Assembly: GCF_014644535.1 (NCBI RefSeq)
Contig: NZ_BMKW01000002.1
Coordinates: forward strand, 397,034 to 461,033
Reading direction: 5' to 3'
Source of the DNA: Neoroseomonas lacus
GTDB taxonomy: Bacteria > Pseudomonadota > Alphaproteobacteria > Acetobacterales > Acetobacteraceae
Length of the DNA: 64,000 bases
The notes below the pieces were generated by a model, which ran no database searches, was not told the DNA's origin, and was given only the letters and a program-made list of their open reading frames with translations. Each line of letters starts with the position of its first letter. Within the stretch, counting starts at the first letter, position 1. A program made the position numbers and the translations under genes. Positions 6,352 through 13,990 of the stretch are shown piece by piece.

Positions 6352-6804
6352 TCAGCCGCCGAGTCGCGCCTTCACCATCGGTCCCGCCTTGGCCATGTCG
6401 AGCACCGCGGCATACTTGCCCTTCAGCACCGCCATCACCTTGCCCATCTCCTTGACACTGGTCGCGCCGGCCTCGGCCACGGCGGCGTCGACCGCGGCCG
6501 CCATCGCGGCATCGTCCAGCTGCTGCGGCAGGAAGCTGTCGATGATCGCGATCTCGGCTTCTTCCTTGGCCGCCAGCTCCTCGCGGCCGCCCTGGCGGTA
6601 CATCGTCACGCTCTCGGCGCGCGACTTCGCCATGCCGCGCAGCATGGCGATGATGCCGGCCTCGTCGATCGGTGGGCCGGGGCGGGCGGCGATGTCGCTG
6701 TCCTTCAATTTGGCCGTGATCATGCGCAGGGTGGAGACACGGGCGGCCTCGCCGGCGCGCATCGCGGTCTTGAGCTCATCGGTGAAACGGTCGCGGAGTG
6801 ACAT
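6352..6804 (-). CDS. GatB/YqeY domain-containing protein
   Basis: A 150-residue stand-alone YqeY-type protein (MSLRDRFTDELKTAMRAGEAARVSTLRMI). This all-helical domain is shared with the tail of the GatB subunit of tRNA amidotransferase, where it contacts tRNA; the stand-alone form has no firmly known role. Family marks include the K/R-rich N-terminal helix, SVTMYRQGGREELAAKEEAEI and IDSFLPQQL. The start at 6804 has a GAGGA site upstream. It is divergent from carA with 117 bases between starts. In many alphaproteobacteria yqeY lies next to dnaG; here two small genes lie between them. Confidence 0.85.
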   Translation of the reverse strand: MSLRDRFTDELKTAMRAGEAARVSTLRMITAKLKDSDIAARPGPPIDEAGIIAMLRGMAKSRAESVTMYRQGGREELAAKEEAEIAIIDSFLPQQLDDAAMAAAVDAAVAEAGATSVKEMGKVMAVLKGKYAAVLDMAKAGPMVKARLGG

Positions 6805-6857
6805 GGTCGAGGTCCTCGGTCTGGTTGGCACGGATATAGCGCTTCAGTCGCCTGGGA

Positions 6858-6867
6858 GGAAATTTCC
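6858..6867. promoter_or_regulatory. Palindrome GGAAATTTCC in the yqeY-carA spacer
   Basis: A perfect 10-bp palindrome in the divergent spacer, extended by GGG/CCC on the flanks. Its centre is about 36 bases upstream of a second inverted repeat (arms GGGAA/TTCCC, 6892-6906). The two share a GGGAA-like half-site and could be sites for one regulator. No binding evidence exists beyond the symmetry. Confidence 0.35.
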
Positions 6868-6884
6868 CATCCACCTGAATCAGC

Positions 6885-6914
6885 TTGCACTGGGAAATCA
6901 GTTCCCGGCATAAC
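6885..6914 (+). promoter_or_regulatory. Candidate carA promoter with embedded operator
   Basis: Candidate -35 TTGCAC (6885-6890), an 18-base spacer and candidate -10 CATAAC (6909-6914). The spacer contains an inverted repeat with arms GGGAA and TTCCC separated by five bases (6892-6906), the usual place for an operator. A start of transcription 7-8 bases after the -10 would fall on the ATG at 6922, giving a leaderless message. That fits the lack of a Shine-Dalgarno site before that ATG. The hexamers match consensus only partly, so this is a proposal. Confidence 0.4.
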
Positions 6915-6921
6915 CCTGCCC

Positions 6922-8301
6922 ATGCGCACCGTGGAAGATATCATCGCCCTGCTCGGAGGTCCCGAGGCGGCGGCGTCGCATTGCGGCGTCGGCACCGAGG
7001 CGATCCGCAAATGGCGCCAGGCCCGGGCCATCCCGGCCAAACACTGGCCCGCGGTTCTCTCCGCGACCGGCCTTTCCCTGTCCGACCTGCCGGGTACGCC
7101 CGGCGAAACCCTGAAGACGGAGCCGACCATGGCCTCTGCCGATACTCCCCCCGATGGTGCCACGGGCTGCCTGGTGCTGGCCGACGGGACCATCATCTGG
7201 GGCCGAGGCTTCGGCGCCGAGACCTCGGCGGTCGGCGAGGTCTGCTTCAACACCGGCATGACGGGGTATCAGGAGACGCTGACCGACCCGTCCTATGCCG
7301 GCCAGATCATCACCTTCACCTTCCCCCACATCGGCAACGTCGGGACCAATATCGAGGATCTCGAAAGCGTGACGCCGGCCGCTCGCGGCCTGATCGTCCG
7401 CCAGGATGTGACCGAGCCGGCCAATTACCGTTCGACCAAGCATCTGAATGGCTGGCTGGTCTCGCATGGCATCGCCGGGCTCGCCGGGGTGGATACGCGG
7501 GCGCTGACCGTGCTGATCCGCGATGGCGGGGCGCCGAATGGCGTGATCAGCCACCGGGCGGACGGCAAGTTCGACATCGCAGCGCTGAAGGCGCAGGCCG
7601 CCGGCTGGCCGGGGCTGGAAGGGATGGACCTGGCCAAGGAGGTCACCTGCCGCCAGAGCTTCGCCTGGAACGAGACCGAATGGGCCTGGTCGACGGGTTT
7701 CGGGCAGCAGACGGCGCCGACGCACAAGGTCGTTGCGGTCGATTACGGGGCGAAGCGCAACATCCTGCGCTGCCTGGCCTCGGCCGGCTGCGACGTGGTG
7801 GTGGTGCCGGCGACGGCGACCGCCGAGGAGATCCTCGCCCACAAGCCGGATGGGGTGTTCCTCTCGAACGGCCCGGGGGACCCGGCGGCGACGGGCGAAT
7901 ACGCCGTGCCGGCGATCCAGGGCGTGATGGCGAGCCAGGTGCCGGTGTTCGGCATCTGCCTGGGGCATCAGTTGCTAGCGCTGTCGTTGGGGGCCAAGAC
8001 CTTCAAGCTGCCGCGCGGCCATCGCGGGGCGAACCAGCCGGTGAAGGACCTGACCACCGGCAAGGTCGAGATCACCAGCCAGAATCACGGCTTCGCGGTG
8101 GACCCGAAGACGCTGCCGGACACGGCGAAGGTCACCCACGTCTCGCTGTTCGACGGCACCAATGAAGGCATCGCGGCGACCGACCGGCCGGCCTTCTCCG
8201 TGCAGTACCACCCCGAAGCGAGCCCGGGGCCGACCGATAGCCACTACCTGTTCCATCGTTTCGTCGAGATGATGGCGGCGTCCAAGGCTGGCCGGGCCTG
8301 A
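6922..8301 (+). CDS. carA: Carbamoyl-phosphate synthase small subunit with N-terminal HTH extension
   Basis: Glutaminase subunit that supplies ammonia to CarB for carbamoyl phosphate, the precursor of arginine and pyrimidines. From residue 70 (ATG at 7129, with GGAG upstream) the protein is a standard CarA: N-terminal CPSase small-chain domain, then a class I glutaminase with Cys346 in FGICLGHQ and a C-terminal YHPEASPGP. The first 69 codons are in frame with no stop. They encode a helix-turn-helix-like module (EDIIALLGGPEAAASHCGVG, then EAIRKWRQARAIPAKHW) resembling small Cro/YdaS-type domains; I recall an NCBI model called carph-isopro for similar N-terminal modules. Two products, 459 and 390 residues, are possible. 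carB follows 2.4 kb downstream, after six other reading frames. Confidence 0.93.
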   Translation: MRTVEDIIALLGGPEAAASHCGVGTEAIRKWRQARAIPAKHWPAVLSATGLSLSDLPGTPGETLKTEPTMASADTPPDGATGCLVLADGTIIWGRGFGAETSAVGEVCFNTGMTGYQETLTDPSYAGQIITFTFPHIGNVGTNIEDLESVTPAARGLIVRQDVTEPANYRSTKHLNGWLVSHGIAGLAGVDTRALTVLIRDGGAPNGVISHRADGKFDIAALKAQAAGWPGLEGMDLAKEVTCRQSFAWNETEWAWSTGFGQQTAPTHKVVAVDYGAKRNILRCLASAGCDVVVVPATATAEEILAHKPDGVFLSNGPGDPAATGEYAVPAIQGVMASQVPVFGICLGHQLLALSLGAKTFKLPRGHRGANQPVKDLTTGKVEITSQNHGFAVDPKTLPDTAKVTHVSLFDGTNEGIAATDRPAFSVQYHPEASPGPTDSHYLFHRFVEMMAASKAGRA

Positions 8302-8386: not shown

Positions 8387-9145
8387 ATGTTCGATCTGAA
8401 GGGGCGCGCGGCGCTCGTCACCGGCGGAAATGGCGGCATCGGACTCGGCTTCGCGCGGGGGCTGGCCAAGGCCGGCGCATCCGTGATGGTGGCCGGGCGC
8501 AATGCGGCGAAGAATGCCGCCGCGGTGGCTGAGTTGCGGGCGCTCGGCGCGACGGCCGATGCCGTGGAGGTCGATGTCACCGATGAGGCGTCGATCCGCG
8601 CCATGGTCGCGACCACGGCCGAGCGGCTCGGGCGGCTCGATATCCTGGTGAACAATGCCGGCACGAACATCCGCAACCGTCCGGAGGTCTACCGGATGGA
8701 GGATTGGCACACCGTCATCGCGACCAACCTGACCAGCGGCATGATCGCGGCGCAGGCGGCGCATCCGTGGCTGAAGAAGGGCGGCGTGGGCCGCGTCATC
8801 AACAACGGGTCGATGCTGTCAATCTTCGGCCTGCCTTTTCATGCCGCCTATGGCGCGTCGAAGGGCGGCGTGGTGCAGATGACGAAGTCGATGGCAGTGG
8901 CCTGGGCGGAGGACGGCATCACGGTGAACGTCATCCTGCCCGGCTGGATCGACACCGACCTGACGCGCAAGGCGCGCACCGACATGGTCAATCTGAACGA
9001 GGACGTGCTGCGACGCACGCCGACGAAGCGCTGGGGCACGCCCGGCGATTTCGAAGGCGTCGCGGCGTTCCTCGCATCCGACGCGGCGGCCTTCATCACC
9101 GGGGTGGCGATTCCGGTGGATGGCGGGTTCTCGGTTCACGGCTGA
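8387..9145 (+). CDS. SDR family oxidoreductase
   Basis: A classical short-chain dehydrogenase of 252 residues. It has the dinucleotide-binding VTGGNGGIGLGFA at the N-terminus, NNAGTN after strand 4, the catalytic Ser in INNGSMLS and the catalytic pair in YGASKGG, and ends with a family-typical VPVDGGFSVHG. It probably oxidises or reduces a sugar or hydroxyacid with NAD(P); the substrate is not deducible. The closest feel is the gluconate/KduD-like group. GGGAGA precedes the ATG. Its stop overlaps the start of the LysE gene (TGATG), so the two are likely co-translated. Confidence 0.85.
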   Translation: MFDLKGRAALVTGGNGGIGLGFARGLAKAGASVMVAGRNAAKNAAAVAELRALGATADAVEVDVTDEASIRAMVATTAERLGRLDILVNNAGTNIRNRPEVYRMEDWHTVIATNLTSGMIAAQAAHPWLKKGGVGRVINNGSMLSIFGLPFHAAYGASKGGVVQMTKSMAVAWAEDGITVNVILPGWIDTDLTRKARTDMVNLNEDVLRRTPTKRWGTPGDFEGVAAFLASDAAAFITGVAIPVDGGFSVHG

Positions 9146-9777
9146 TGCCCTCCATTGAGACGCTGCTGGTCTTCGCCGCGCTGTCCTTCGGCCTCGCGGC
9201 AACGCCGGGGCCGAACATGCTCTATCTCGTCTCCCGCGCGCTCGCGCAGGGAACCGGGGCGGGCATGGTGTCGCTCGTCGGCTGCCAGGCCGGCTCGCTG
9301 GTCATCATGCTGTGTGCCGCCGCCGGGCTGACCGCGGCGCTGTTCGCCGTGCCCTATGCCTGGGATGTGCTGCGCCTTGGTGGCGCGGCCTATCTGGCAT
9401 GGCTCGCCTGGCAATGCCTGCGCCCCGGCGGGCAGCCGATCTTCGCGCCCCGCGCGATGCCGCGCGAGCCAGCGGCGCGGCTGTTCTCGGTCGGCTTCGC
9501 CACGGCGGCGCTGAACCCGAAGGTCGCGCTGTTCTACGTGGCCGTGCTGCCGCCCTTCATCGACCCGGCGCGCGGCGATGTCTTCACCCAGGGCGTGGTA
9601 CTTGGGGCGGTGCAGGTCCTCGTCGCCATCATCTTCGACGGCGCCTTGATCTATGGCGCGGCGGGTGTCGCGCGCTTCCTTGGCACGCGGCCGGGCTGGA
9701 TGGCGGCGCAGCGTTGGGTTCTCGGCGCGGCTCTGGCGTTGATCGCCGTGAAGCTCGCCAGCGAGGGACGGCGATGA
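9145..9777 (+). CDS. LysE family translocator
   Basis: A 210-residue membrane exporter of the LysE/RhtB group. It carries the signature ATPGPNMLYLVSRALAQG near the N-terminus, six hydrophobic segments, and ALNPKVALFYVAVLPPFI in the middle. The family exports amino acids or similar metabolites. The start is fixed by a one-base overlap with the SDR stop; there is no separate ribosome site. It may remove a product related to the SDR reaction, but that is inference from coupling only. Confidence 0.85.
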   Translation: MPSIETLLVFAALSFGLAATPGPNMLYLVSRALAQGTGAGMVSLVGCQAGSLVIMLCAAAGLTAALFAVPYAWDVLRLGGAAYLAWLAWQCLRPGGQPIFAPRAMPREPAARLFSVGFATAALNPKVALFYVAVLPPFIDPARGDVFTQGVVLGAVQVLVAIIFDGALIYGAAGVARFLGTRPGWMAAQRWVLGAALALIAVKLASEGRR

Positions 9778-10073
9778 ACTATTATGGCCTCGATGCACTT
9801 GCGCATGGCGCGACGGCGGCGCTGGTCGTCTTCCTGCCGGCGGTCGTGCTGTTCTGGCGACTGACGCGCAGCCTGACCGGGATGCGGCCATTGCGGCCCT
9901 TCGTCGCCGTCTGCGCGGCCTATGGCATCGCCATCGGTGGGGCAGGCCTGTGGGCCGCGAATTTCGAGCGCGCGAGCTTCGTCGACGAAGCCATGGGCGG
10001 CGGTCTGCTCGGCGGCGCGATCTTCGCGTTGCTCGCCTTCCTCGTGCTGCTGCTGTTTCCGCACAGGCGATGA
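9774..10073 (+). CDS. Small membrane protein, unknown
   Basis: A 99-residue hydrophobic protein with three predicted membrane segments: roughly residues 10-28, 45-62 and 78-96, the last ending FLVLLLFPHRR. The ATG overlaps the LysE stop (ATGA). I do not recognise a family. It is the first of a run of tiny coupled genes before carB. Base composition matches the neighbours, and the overlapping start/stop pattern supports it as real. Confidence 0.6.
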   Translation: MNYYGLDALAHGATAALVVFLPAVVLFWRLTRSLTGMRPLRPFVAVCAAYGIAIGGAGLWAANFERASFVDEAMGGGLLGGAIFALLAFLVLLLFPHRR

Positions 10074-10159
10074 CAGCGATGATCCATGACCTCCCTGCCC
10101 TGCCCGGCCATGTCGTGCTGTTGCTGACCGTGACGCCGGCAACGGGACACCACGCGTGA
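10070..10159 (+). CDS. Very small coupled reading frame (29 aa)
   Basis: Starts on ATGA, overlapping the stop of the 99-residue membrane gene, and ends on TGATG, overlapping the start of the next one. The product has a hydrophobic middle (GHVVLLLTVTP). It may be a tiny protein or simply a translational bridge that keeps ribosomes moving to the next gene. Only the precise overlaps support it. Confidence 0.35.
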   Translation: MTAMIHDLPALPGHVVLLLTVTPATGHHA

Positions 10160-10452
10160 TGCTGTTGCTCCTCGTGTTGGTCCTGGCCGAACTGGCGGCG
10201 CTGGCGCTGTCCGCGCTGGTTTATCGGCTGCGGCCAGGCTTCCTGCCGCGCTGGGCGGCGGCGCTGCTCGCGCCGGTGCTGGTCATGCTGGCGGGGTTCA
10301 CCTTTGTCGGCTGGTCGGCATCGCGCCTGCCGCCGGATGGCTTCGACCTGCACCTGCTGGTGCTGTCCCCACCCTTCGCCTTCGCCATCTTCGCCCCTGT
10401 AGGCGTGGCGCTGCTGGGCTGGGTTTTCTTCACGCGCGGCCATGCGCCGTGA
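10159..10452 (+). CDS. Small membrane protein, unknown
   Basis: A 97-residue protein with three hydrophobic segments (LLLLVLVLAELAALALSAL; AALLAPVLVMLAGFTFVGW; FAFAIFAPVGVALLGWVFF). The ATG overlaps the preceding stop; a GTG one codon earlier is an alternative. No recognised family. It is coupled at its end to the next gene by GTGA. Confidence 0.55.
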   Translation: MLLLLVLVLAELAALALSALVYRLRPGFLPRWAAALLAPVLVMLAGFTFVGWSASRLPPDGFDLHLLVLSPPFAFAIFAPVGVALLGWVFFTRGHAP

Positions 10453-10736
10453 GCGACATCGCGATCGATTTCACGCCGCTCTATGTGGTGCTGCTGCTGG
10501 CCGCGGTCGCGGCGCTGCTGGCGTTGCCACTGGCCTGGTGGTGGCTGCGTGACCTGGCGACGATCTATCGCGCGCCGGCCGCTGTACTGGCGGCCCTGGC
10601 GCTGGCCGGCCTCGGCGGCGTGCTCGGCGATGCCGTGCTGCGCGACGACGAGGTCGCGCTGCTGACCCTCGGCGCCACCTTGCTGTTGCAGGTGATGGTG
10701 CTGCCCATACTTCTCATTTTCTTTCGCAGAGGCTGA
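10449..10736 (+). CDS. Small membrane protein, unknown
   Basis: A 95-residue protein that starts with GTG on a GTGA overlap. It has an N-terminal segment [20 protein letters not shown], a middle hydrophobic helix and a C-terminal one ([14 protein letters not shown]) ending in FRRG. Family not recognised. Only 8 bases separate its stop from the carB start, so carB is very probably read from the same transcript. Confidence 0.55.
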
Positions 10737-10744
10737 CCGACCCA

Positions 10745-13700
10745 ATGCCCAAGCGCACCGACATCAAGTCCATCCTCATCATTGGCGCCGGCCCGATCGT
10801 CATCGGCCAGGCCTGCGAATTCGACTATTCCGGCGCCCAGGCCTGCAAGGCGCTGCGCGCCGAGGGCTACCGCGTCATCCTGGTGAATTCCAACCCGGCC
10901 ACGATCATGACCGATCCCGGGCTGGCGGATGCCACCTACATCGAGCCGATCACGGTCGAGATCGTCGAGAAGATCATCGCCAAGGAGCGCCCCGACGCGC
11001 TGCTGCCGACGATGGGCGGGCAGACCGCGCTCAACACGTCGTTGAAGCTGGCCGAGGCCGGCATTCTTGAGAAATACGGCTGCGAGCTGATCGGGGCGAA
11101 GGCCGAGGTCATCGACAAGGCCGAGGATCGCCAGAAGTTCCGCAATGCGATGACGAAGATCGGCATCGAGAGCCCGCGCAGCGAGATCGCGCACACCATG
11201 CCGGAAGCCTGGGATGCGCTGAAGGTGGTGGGGCTGCCCTGCGTCATCCGGCCATCCTTCACGCTCGGCGGCACCGGCGGCGGCATCGCTTACAACCGCG
11301 AGGAATTCGACCAGATCGTTGCCGCCGGCCTCGCCGCCTCCATGACCAGCGAAGTACTGGTCGAGGAAAGCGTGCTGGGCTGGAAGGAATACGAGATGGA
11401 GGTCGTCCGCGACCGCGCGGACAACTGCATCATCATCTGCTCCATCGAGAATCTCGACGCGATGGGCGTGCATACCGGCGACAGCGTCACCATCGCCCCG
11501 GCGCTGACGCTGACCGACAAGGAATACCAGCGCATGCGCGACGCCTCGATCGCGTGTTTGCGCGAGATCGGCGTCGATACCGGCGGGTCCAACGTGCAGT
11601 TCGGCATCAACCCCGCCGATGGACGCATGGTCGTCATCGAGATGAATCCGCGCGTGTCGCGCTCCTCCGCACTGGCCTCGAAGGCGACCGGCTTCCCGAT
11701 CGCCAAGATCGCGGCGAAGCTCGCCGTCGGCTACACGCTCGACGAATTGCAGAACGACATCACCATGGTCACGCCGGCGAGCTTCGAGCCGACGATCGAC
11801 TATGTCGTGGTCAAGATCCCGCGCTTCACCTTCGAGAAGTTCCCCGGCACGCCGGCAACCTTGACGACCTCAATGAAGTCAGTCGGCGAGACCATGGCGA
11901 TAGGCCGCTCCTTCGCGGAGGCCTTGCAGAAAGGTCTGCGCGGGCTGGAGACGGGCTTCACCGGCCTCGATGACCTGCCGGTGCCGGGCGACGGTTCGGC
12001 CCAGGCCTTCCACGCCGCGCTGGCGACACCGCGGCCGGACCGCATCCTGATGGCGGCGCAGGCGATGCGCGCCGGCGTCTCGCTCGACGAGATCCACGAG
12101 GCCTGCAAATTCGACCCGTGGTTCCTGCGTGAAGTCGAGAAGATCGTGCTCGCCGAGAACGAAATTCGCGCCAAGGGCCTGCCACAGAGCGCGCCTGCCA
12201 TGCGCAACCTGAAGGCGCTCGGCTTCTCCGACATGCGGCTGGCGAAGCTCGCCGGCGTGAAGGAGACGGAAGTCACGGCGCTGCGCGGCAAGCTTGGGGT
12301 GCAGCCGGTCTACAAGCGCATCGACACCTGCGCGGGCGAATTCGCCTCCGACACGCCGTACATGTATTCGACCTATGAGGGCGGCTTCGGCACGCCTGTC
12401 TGCGAATCACGACCGACGGCGCGTAGGAAGGTCATCATCCTCGGCGGCGGGCCGAACCGCATCGGCCAGGGCATCGAATTCGACTATTGCTGCGTCCATG
12501 CCTGCTACGCGCTGCGCGATGCCGGCTATGAGACCATCATGGTCAACTGCAATCCCGAGACTGTGTCGACCGACTACGACACCTCCGACCGGCTGTATTT
12601 CGAACCACTGACGGCCGAGGACGTCATCGCCCTGATCCGCAAGGAACAGGAATCCGGTGAGGTGCTCGGCTGCATCGTGCAATATGGCGGGCAGACGCCG
12701 CTGAAGCTGTCCCAGGCGTTGCACAAGGCGGGCATTCCGATCCTCGGCACCTCGGCCGAGGCCATCGACATCGCCGAGGACCGCGAGCGCTTCCAACAGC
12801 TGCTGAAGGGCCTCGGCCTGAAGCAGCCGCAGAACGGTACGGCGCGCACGCTGGACGAGGCCGTCAGCGAGGCCAACCGCATCGGCTATCCGGTCGTGGT
12901 GCGCCCGTCCTATGTTCTCGGGGGCCGTGCGATGGAGATCGCGCATAACGACGAGCAACTGCGGCGCTTCGGCGCGGAGGCGGTAAAGGTCTCGGGCGAG
13001 AACCCCATCCTGATCGACCAGTATCTGGCCGACGCGATCGAGGTCGATGTCGACTGCATCTGCGACGCCGTCGGCCAGGTCTATGTCGCGGGGGTGATGG
13101 AGCACATCGAGGAAGCCGGCATCCATTCGGGCGATTCCGCCTGCTCGCTGCCGCCCTATTCGCTCCCGCCCGCCATCGTGACGGAACTCAAGGCCGAGAC
13201 GGAAGCGATGGCCCGCGCGCTCAAGGTGCAGGGGCTGATGAACGTGCAGTACGCCGTCAAGGACGGCGAGATCTTCGTGCTCGAAGTAAACCCCCGCGCC
13301 TCGCGCACCGTCCCCTTCGTCGCCAAGGCGACCGGCATCGCCGTGGCCAAGATCGGCGCCCGCGTCATGGCGGGCGAGCATCTGTCCAGCTTCAAGCTCG
13401 ATGACGATGCCGTCTCGCGCCATGTTGCGGTCAAGGAAGCCGTTTTCCCCTTCAACCGTTTCCCCAATGTCGATGTCATTCTCGGGCCGGAGATGAAGTC
13501 GACAGGCGAGGTGATGGGCCTCGACCATTCCTTCGAGCGTGCCTTCCTCAAGGCGCAGCTCGGCGCCGGGGTGAAGCTCCCGGAGGAAGGCACCGCCTTC
13601 ATCTCCGTGAAGGAGAGCGACAAGGCGGCGGCGGTCACCCTCGCGCGGCGCCTGTCGGATATGGGCTTCCGAATCCTTGCGACCCGCGGCACCGCGGCGC

Positions 13701-13990
13701 GCATTCGCGAGGCCGGGCTGGAGGTGCAGATCGTCAACAAAGTGCTGGAGGGTCGGCCACATTGCGTCGACGCCATGAAGTCCGGCGACATCCAGCTGGT
13801 GATCAACACCACCGGCGGCGGGCAGTCGGTGGCGGACAGCTTCGACATCCGGCGCTCGGCCCTGACGCATGGCATTCCGCACTACACCACGGCGGCTGGA
13901 GCGCGGGCTGCGGTGCATGCGATTGCGGCACTGAAGGCCGGAACCCTTGATGTGGCGCCCCTGCAGGCGTATTTTGATACATCATTCTGA
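10745..13990 (+). CDS. carB: Carbamoyl-phosphate synthase large subunit
   Basis: A 1081-residue synthetase subunit with the usual duplicated layout. The N-terminal carboxyphosphate half has [17 protein letters not shown] and an ATP-grasp fold. An oligomerisation region follows, then a second ATP-grasp half with [19 protein letters not shown]. The C-terminal methylglyoxal-synthase-like allosteric domain starts around residue 935 ([21 protein letters not shown]). It makes carbamoyl phosphate from bicarbonate, two ATP and ammonia from CarA. Length and motifs are normal. The separation from carA by an SDR-LysE-membrane-protein chain is the unusual point. Confidence 0.97.

Follow-up and report, generated by a model that had tools for sequence, protein, structure and literature searches.

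A predicted helix-turn-helix autorepressor fused to the small subunit of carbamoyl-phosphate synthase in Acetobacteraceae

Arginine and pyrimidine synthesis both draw on carbamoyl phosphate, and the carAB genes of Escherichia coli are regulated by PepA, PurR, RutR, and IHF. PutA, which carries a ribbon-helix-helix domain, is governed by a flavin/membrane switch. In the part of the source available, PutA is described as one polypeptide that is both a metabolic enzyme and the repressor of its own operon (PMC6978683). The ArgR regulon of gammaproteobacteria includes carAB, likewise according to the available part of the paper (PMC5343134). The carph-isopro domain has already been named by NCBI, and its existence is thus known. 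In the open-access library searched, no paper was found on carph-isopro by name, on a CarA or CPSase with a helix-turn-helix (HTH) or DNA-binding extension, on an alphaproteobacterial carAB operator, or on a mitofilin with an HTH. Neither the operators presented here nor the covariation or dual start was found described in the same library.

The carA gene of Neoroseomonas lacus, located in a window of 64 kb (the whole stretch of DNA analysed), joins an enzyme and a predicted DNA-binding domain in one polypeptide, as judged from sequence and predicted fold (Table 1).

Table 1. Coordinates of the carA features, numbered by position in the window
Feature	Position	Strand	Remarks
Distal putative operator GGGAGGAAATTTCCC	6854..6868	.	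1 mismatch to GGGAA-N5-TTCCC
-35 element TTGCAC	6885..6890	+	T/T/G conserved in relatives
Proximal putative operator GGGAAATCAGTTCCC	6892..6906	.	GGGAA-N5-TTCCC, inside -35/-10 spacer
-10 element CATAAC	6909..6914	+	A/T-rich block at same offset in relatives
HTH-CarA fusion ORF	6922..8301	+	459 aa; 69-codon extension, then ordinary CarA
carph-isopro (Cro-type) HTH domain, residues 4-56	6931..7089	+	NF046037, predicted fold
Recognition helix, residues 25-34 (TEAIRKWRQA)	6994..7023	+	Helix from model, invariant residues, residue 33 covariation
Shine-Dalgarno-like GGAG of internal start	7119..7122	+	Duplex energy -5.8
Internal ATG, start of plain CarA	7129..7131	+	Linker ATG in 109/123 unique loci
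CarA body, carbamoyl-phosphate synthase small subunit with glutamine amidotransferase domain	7129..8301	+	TIGR01368, PF00117

An earlier note on this DNA had proposed that an HTH extension precedes the normal CarA start, and this is borne out. The 69 in-frame codons 5' of ATG 7129 (6922–7128) are free of stops, and their translation belongs to carph-isopro by the curated cut-off of NF046037 (38 bits), scoring 72.4 bits alone and 68 bits within the whole protein. The CarA portion is equally clear. It belongs to TIGR01368 (461 bits; curated cut-off, 307.35), its body matches the GATase profile PF00117, and C346, H430, and E432, which we take to be the Cys-His-Glu triad of a class I amidotransferase, are invariant across 34 aligned CarA sequences. 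The extension falls outside Pfam P22_Cro (PF14549; 25.2 bits against a gathering cut-off of 30.2), although the fold is similar, and its score for Pfam YdaS is also under the cut-off. No second carph-isopro protein over the cut-off was found in the N. lacus genome.

AlphaFold2 places four helices in the extension (residues 4–11, 14–21, 25–34, and 39–49) with a pLDDT of about 90 and a low-confidence tail. In the full-length model, the HTH scores 70–91 per ten-residue block, and residues 59–71 and 111–141 score below 50; the linker, being of low confidence, is probably flexible. The closest solved folds in Foldseek are the Cro proteins of N15 (one entry, 6on0, on operator DNA), Xfaso 1, and P22, the best match having an E-value of 0.024 at a probability of 1.00, with none at 0.001 or better. 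A profile search of PDB sequences returned XPH1, Xfaso 1 Cro, and N15 Cro at E-values of 0.009–0.013. Selection on codons 1–69, a check raised in the earlier note, is purifying, as it is on CarA: dN/dS is 0.138 for the HTH extension and 0.161 for CarA (15 close loci, 105 pairs), which rules out a chance open reading frame.

The fusion extends across the family. The carph-isopro domain exceeds its cut-off in 236 of 249 Acetobacteraceae genomes in a profile search, and a search of the order with the whole protein recovered CarA in 200 of 200 genomes. Of the 150 matches listed from these, 147 align from residue 1–5 on and the other three carry the HTH, so that the frame is conserved in relatives, as the earlier note had suggested checking. 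Candidates for an HTH-less CarA in G608, G595, and G063 came from local alignments and were rejected, as the HTH is present in the fetched loci. Two genomes known to lack the HTH, G029 and G210, belong to the other 50 of the 200, outside the matches listed. The first 53 carA loci all have the extension, but were fetched via the HTH. In a scan of named genomes, the best 80 of 285 encoding stretches were kept; these include Neoroseomonas, Roseomonas, Roseococcus, Acidicaldus, Acetobacter syzygii, others, and metagenome bins.

Upstream of the gene, the promoter outlined earlier is present in every part: a -35 element, a palindrome filling the spacer, a -10 element, and an ATG at 6922, seven bases past the -10. 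A second palindrome, overlooked by the earlier note, lies 38 bp upstream of the first. Allowing up to one mismatch, GGGAA-N5-TTCCC occurs three times in the window, twice 5' of carA; the total of three is not unusual, being reached in 25 of 100 shuffles. Scanning the DNA 5' of carA with the strict sigma-70 consensus gave no promoter, and the promoter call is based on conservation in relatives. Exact single sites occur at four places in the N. lacus genome and at three for the reversed control pattern; three of the four lie elsewhere than at carA, the same number as the control. No regulon is therefore visible, and the idea of one was rejected. The palindromes exceed chance in their place and conservation, not in their bare number.

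This conservation is extensive. A site pair (up to one mismatch per site, spacing 36–44 or 47–55) precedes carA in 71 of the 80 named relatives, against 2 of 80 in an equal control stretch inside carA, and 114 of 123 unique carA loci (derived from 149 given) have an exact single site upstream. Among 148 loci with at least two sites, spacing is 38–40 bp in 105, 43–44 in 16, and 48–55 in 12; we take the last class to reflect roughly one additional turn of the helix. The alignment of 124 leaderless loci shows T/T/G (99, 93, and 89%) beginning 7 bp ahead of the proximal site, an A/T-rich -10 after it, and the ATG 27–31 bp from the site start. Since most loci were found through the HTH, the frequency of sites without an HTH is not readable from them, and genome-wide pattern searches of 100 family and 289 class genomes served as a check on this sampling. 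The exact tandem site occurs in 31 of the 100 family genomes, at one place each, and adjoins HTH-carA in all 31 (29 of 30 fetched loci, the thirtieth, L268, and G008, which is L112); the reversed control pattern gave none. The remaining 69, including N. lacus, whose own pair has one mismatch, lack the exact pair. It is absent from all 289 class genomes, four of which are family members.

Loss of the HTH bears on whether it reads these sites. Fourteen family genomes in which the domain match was absent or in doubt were searched, of which three have an intact CarA and enough upstream sequence, all without the HTH: G029 and G116, from one genus, and G210. In the other 11, CarA is partial or cut, or none was found. 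No site within two mismatches exists in the 600 bp upstream in G029 and G116, where the divergent yqeY is retained. G210 has two two-mismatch matches in its 600 bp, which look like chance; yqeY was not found there, and the fetched genomes of its genus (L034 and L296) retain the sites. Because HTH losses are few (three small genomes, two genera), the co-loss could mean that both parts drifted away during genome reduction. Although its CarA has no HTH, G116 still encodes a stand-alone carph-isopro protein of 82 aa (49.9 bits; L322). We read it as a phage Cro, since it stands next to genes that we take to be phage-like (one for a divergent HTH protein, the other a DNA-methylase-like frame) and has neither palindrome in its 3.1 kb. 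This protein is a hint that the carph-isopro domain itself came from a phage Cro.

The recognition helix and the operator also vary together. Across 160 loci, only the eight inner bases (up to one mismatch) were used to choose the sites, so that the outer base was left free. Where residue 33 is Gln (145 loci), the outer pair is G..C in 244 of 294 sites and C..G in three; where it is Ser (11 loci), the outer pair is C..G in 16 of 17. Loci with Thr (three) or His (one) have mixed outer pairs. A thinned tree of 58 CarA rows could take in four of the 11 Ser loci, given their length, and these form one clade. They thus represent one switch, kept by both partners, which is weaker than the raw count. 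Loci L028, L029, L033, L111, and L282–L288, with CGGAA-N5-TTCCG and Ser33, constitute a natural altered-specificity pair. A tie between the HTH on CarA and GGGAA-N5-TTCCC is supported by the co-loss, the single-place tandem site, and the covariation of residue 33. The earlier suggestion that long CarA may bind its own operator is supported indirectly, by co-loss, specificity covariation, and the location of the sites.

Two translation starts appear to serve this gene. By position (ATG 26–37 bp after a site start), 100 of the 123 loci are leaderless; Shine-Dalgarno pairing there is at background (mean -1.2 kcal/mol, with 11% reaching -4 or better). In the 23 leadered loci, by contrast, a Shine-Dalgarno sequence is mostly present (mean -5.6, 78% at -4 kcal/mol or better). 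This difference speaks for use of the first ATG as a start, and ATG 6922 probably lies at the 5' end of a leaderless mRNA. A search of the open-access library for leaderless transcripts in Acetobacteraceae found no paper. The RNA-seq paper on Gluconobacter oxydans, in the part available, reports 62 leaderless mRNAs (5%), 57 leaderless genes that begin with ATG, and a -35 of ttGnnn (PMC5756330). A family member is therefore known to use leaderless ATG starts and -35 boxes of this kind; carA is not named in the main text of that paper.

The internal ATG has its own GGAG, as the earlier note had observed. A view of this start as unconserved, prompted by L101 and L111, which have no linker Met, was overturned by the larger set: a linker ATG occurs in 109 of 123 loci, against 31% expected from Met frequency. 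In at least three loci (L024, L032, and L168), the linker Met is in the HTH tail rather than at the junction. Duplex energy averages -5.6 at the linker ATG, a mean flattered a little by taking the best of several ATGs in one linker, and -1.3 at 461 other in-frame CarA ATGs; the rows behind these statistics are related and not independent. Residues around the linker ATG vary (TEP, PET, QET, KDT, KET), while GGA is kept in most loci, and pairing is -4 or better in 97 of 123. Since an internal start with a Shine-Dalgarno sequence is mostly conserved, two CarA forms are likely to be made from one gene, in keeping with the earlier note. With the ATG absent in 14 of 123 loci, and pairing weak in others, the short form is not universal.

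The gene neighbourhood bears on the reach of any such regulation. Divergently from carA lies a gene (6352..6804, minus strand) for what is presumably a YqeY-like protein. Of the 80 named loci, some of which are cut by contig ends, 73 yielded this gene, and it is divergent in every one of the 73. Downstream, the frame at 10745..13990 (plus strand), which we take to be CarB, the large subunit, is separate from carA. Its start lies 2.4 kb downstream with other genes between, presumably a short-chain dehydrogenase, a LysE-like exporter, and small membrane proteins (8387–10736), and the window search found no palindrome with up to one mismatch near it. Consequently, the loop seems to act on carA alone. 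The genes at 8387–10736 thus split carA from carB, two genes that share an operon in many bacteria.

Taken as a whole, HTH-CarA is best read as a subunit of a metabolic enzyme with an autogenous repressor attached to it, a reading to which we give a probability of about 0.8. The Cro-type domain would bind as a dimer to the two palindromes. Protein bound at the inner one would block RNA polymerase at the carA promoter, because this palindrome fills the -35/-10 spacer, and the distal palindrome would strengthen repression. Transcripts starting at the first ATG would yield the HTH form, and the internal Shine-Dalgarno start would yield plain CarA, the usual enzyme subunit. The preferred signal would be free long CarA not taken up by CarB, so that carA expression would keep pace with the assembly of the enzyme. 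Another possible signal is a nucleotide or ornithine effector that works via CarB, but a loop on carA alone would favour the sensing of free CarA against CarB.

Several other explanations deserve weighing. The short CarA from 7129 might not be made, the long fusion alone being both enzyme and repressor; in the 14 loci without a linker ATG, the long form must indeed suffice as the enzyme. We regard this as doubtful in general, since the linker ATG is far commoner than Met frequency predicts and has a strong Shine-Dalgarno sequence in most loci, amid variable residues. The protein could also be an autogenous activator whose bound HTH remodels the promoter, as MerR-type activators likewise bind within the -35/-10 spacer, the position occupied by the palindrome. 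An optimal spacer is 17–18 bp, and as the spacer here is near this optimum, no remodelling is needed. The fold is moreover Cro-type, and leadered relatives have the site farther from the start codon, making activation unlikely.

That the operators serve an unrelated, separate regulator, with the HTH a structural or assembly extension of CarA, is improbable. Sites and HTH might be kept together merely since carA expression and CarA both matter. Against this, loss of the HTH accompanies loss of the sites while the divergent gene remains in two of three genomes, residue 33 tracks the outer operator base, and the exact tandem site is single-copy wherever present. The carph-isopro proteins of other families, in turn, have CGTACG upstream and no GGGAA palindrome. 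Nor do the sites, which lie in a shared intergenic region, seem to control yqeY rather than carA, for all its divergent orientation in the named loci. G029 and G116 retain divergent yqeY without sites or HTH, and the proximal site keeps a fixed distance from the -35, -10, and ATG of carA in 124 loci, so that control of yqeY is highly improbable.

Outside the family, carph-isopro is attached to other proteins. It exceeds the cut-off in 52 of 289 genomes drawn from the class (four of the own family). Non-family matches with frames of CarA-like length were rejected as CarA, as none of 46 loci matches it; several of these lie below the carph-isopro cut-off. Of ten non-family proteins scanned, eight are Pfam mitofilin, one is YjeF/NAD(P)H-hydrate dehydratase, and one is a zinc alcohol dehydrogenase. 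A TVQGW-type helix occurs in 27 of 47 non-CarA loci (L046–L067, L070, L073, L074, L088, and L091). Their upstream stretches (about 480 bp) hold 47 occurrences of CGTACG, in 22 loci, against 3.7 in shuffles, and no GGGAA-N5-TTCCC; CGTACG was found in 2 of 123 carA loci. In these other Alphaproteobacteria, the HTH stands at the N-terminus of other proteins, with CGTACG enriched upstream, and a relative of Mic60 is possibly autoregulated. In L065 (1492–3176), the fusion partner of the HTH is a YjeF N-terminal/NAD(P)H-hydrate dehydratase protein, and GTACG repeats directly precede the ATG; in L072 (1486–3069), a related HTH is fused to a zinc-binding alcohol dehydrogenase, with no CGTACG seen upstream. 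A broader proposal, tentative and somewhat short of even odds, is that carph-isopro is a plug-in self-repressor at the N-terminus of housekeeping proteins (CarA, and elsewhere mitofilin/Mic60-like proteins, YjeF, and alcohol dehydrogenase), with branch-specific palindromes close to its own gene. In carA, the leaderless start would then give the repressor-enzyme and the internal start the plain enzyme, letting the cell gauge free CarA against CarB and adjust subunit supply to assembly.

If the autorepressor reading is true, a whole bacterial family controls carbamoyl phosphate via a repressor built into an enzyme subunit, in a compact feedback loop whose operators, specificity residue, and two starts are mapped in a single gene. 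A domain so far only named by NCBI would thereby gain a suggested function, and autoregulation of the same sort becomes a possibility for mitofilin-like proteins in other Alphaproteobacteria.

Among known systems, HTH-CarA resembles PutA, the proline dehydrogenase that represses the put operon, in uniting an enzyme with a predicted autorepressor. Unlike PutA, it has a Cro-type HTH, borne on a subunit of a two-subunit enzyme, and a probable leaderless start together with a second, internal one. The predicted fold is that of phage N15, Xfaso 1, and P22 Cro; these are stand-alone repressors of about 60–80 aa, whereas in HTH-CarA a linker connects the domain to the enzyme subunit. Elsewhere, carph-isopro (NF046037) sits on mitofilin-like, YjeF, and alcohol dehydrogenase proteins, and in this family on CarA. 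Control of carAB by ArgR and by other regulators is likewise transcriptional control of carbamoyl phosphate supply. Those regulators are separate proteins, while the regulator predicted here is part of CarA itself.
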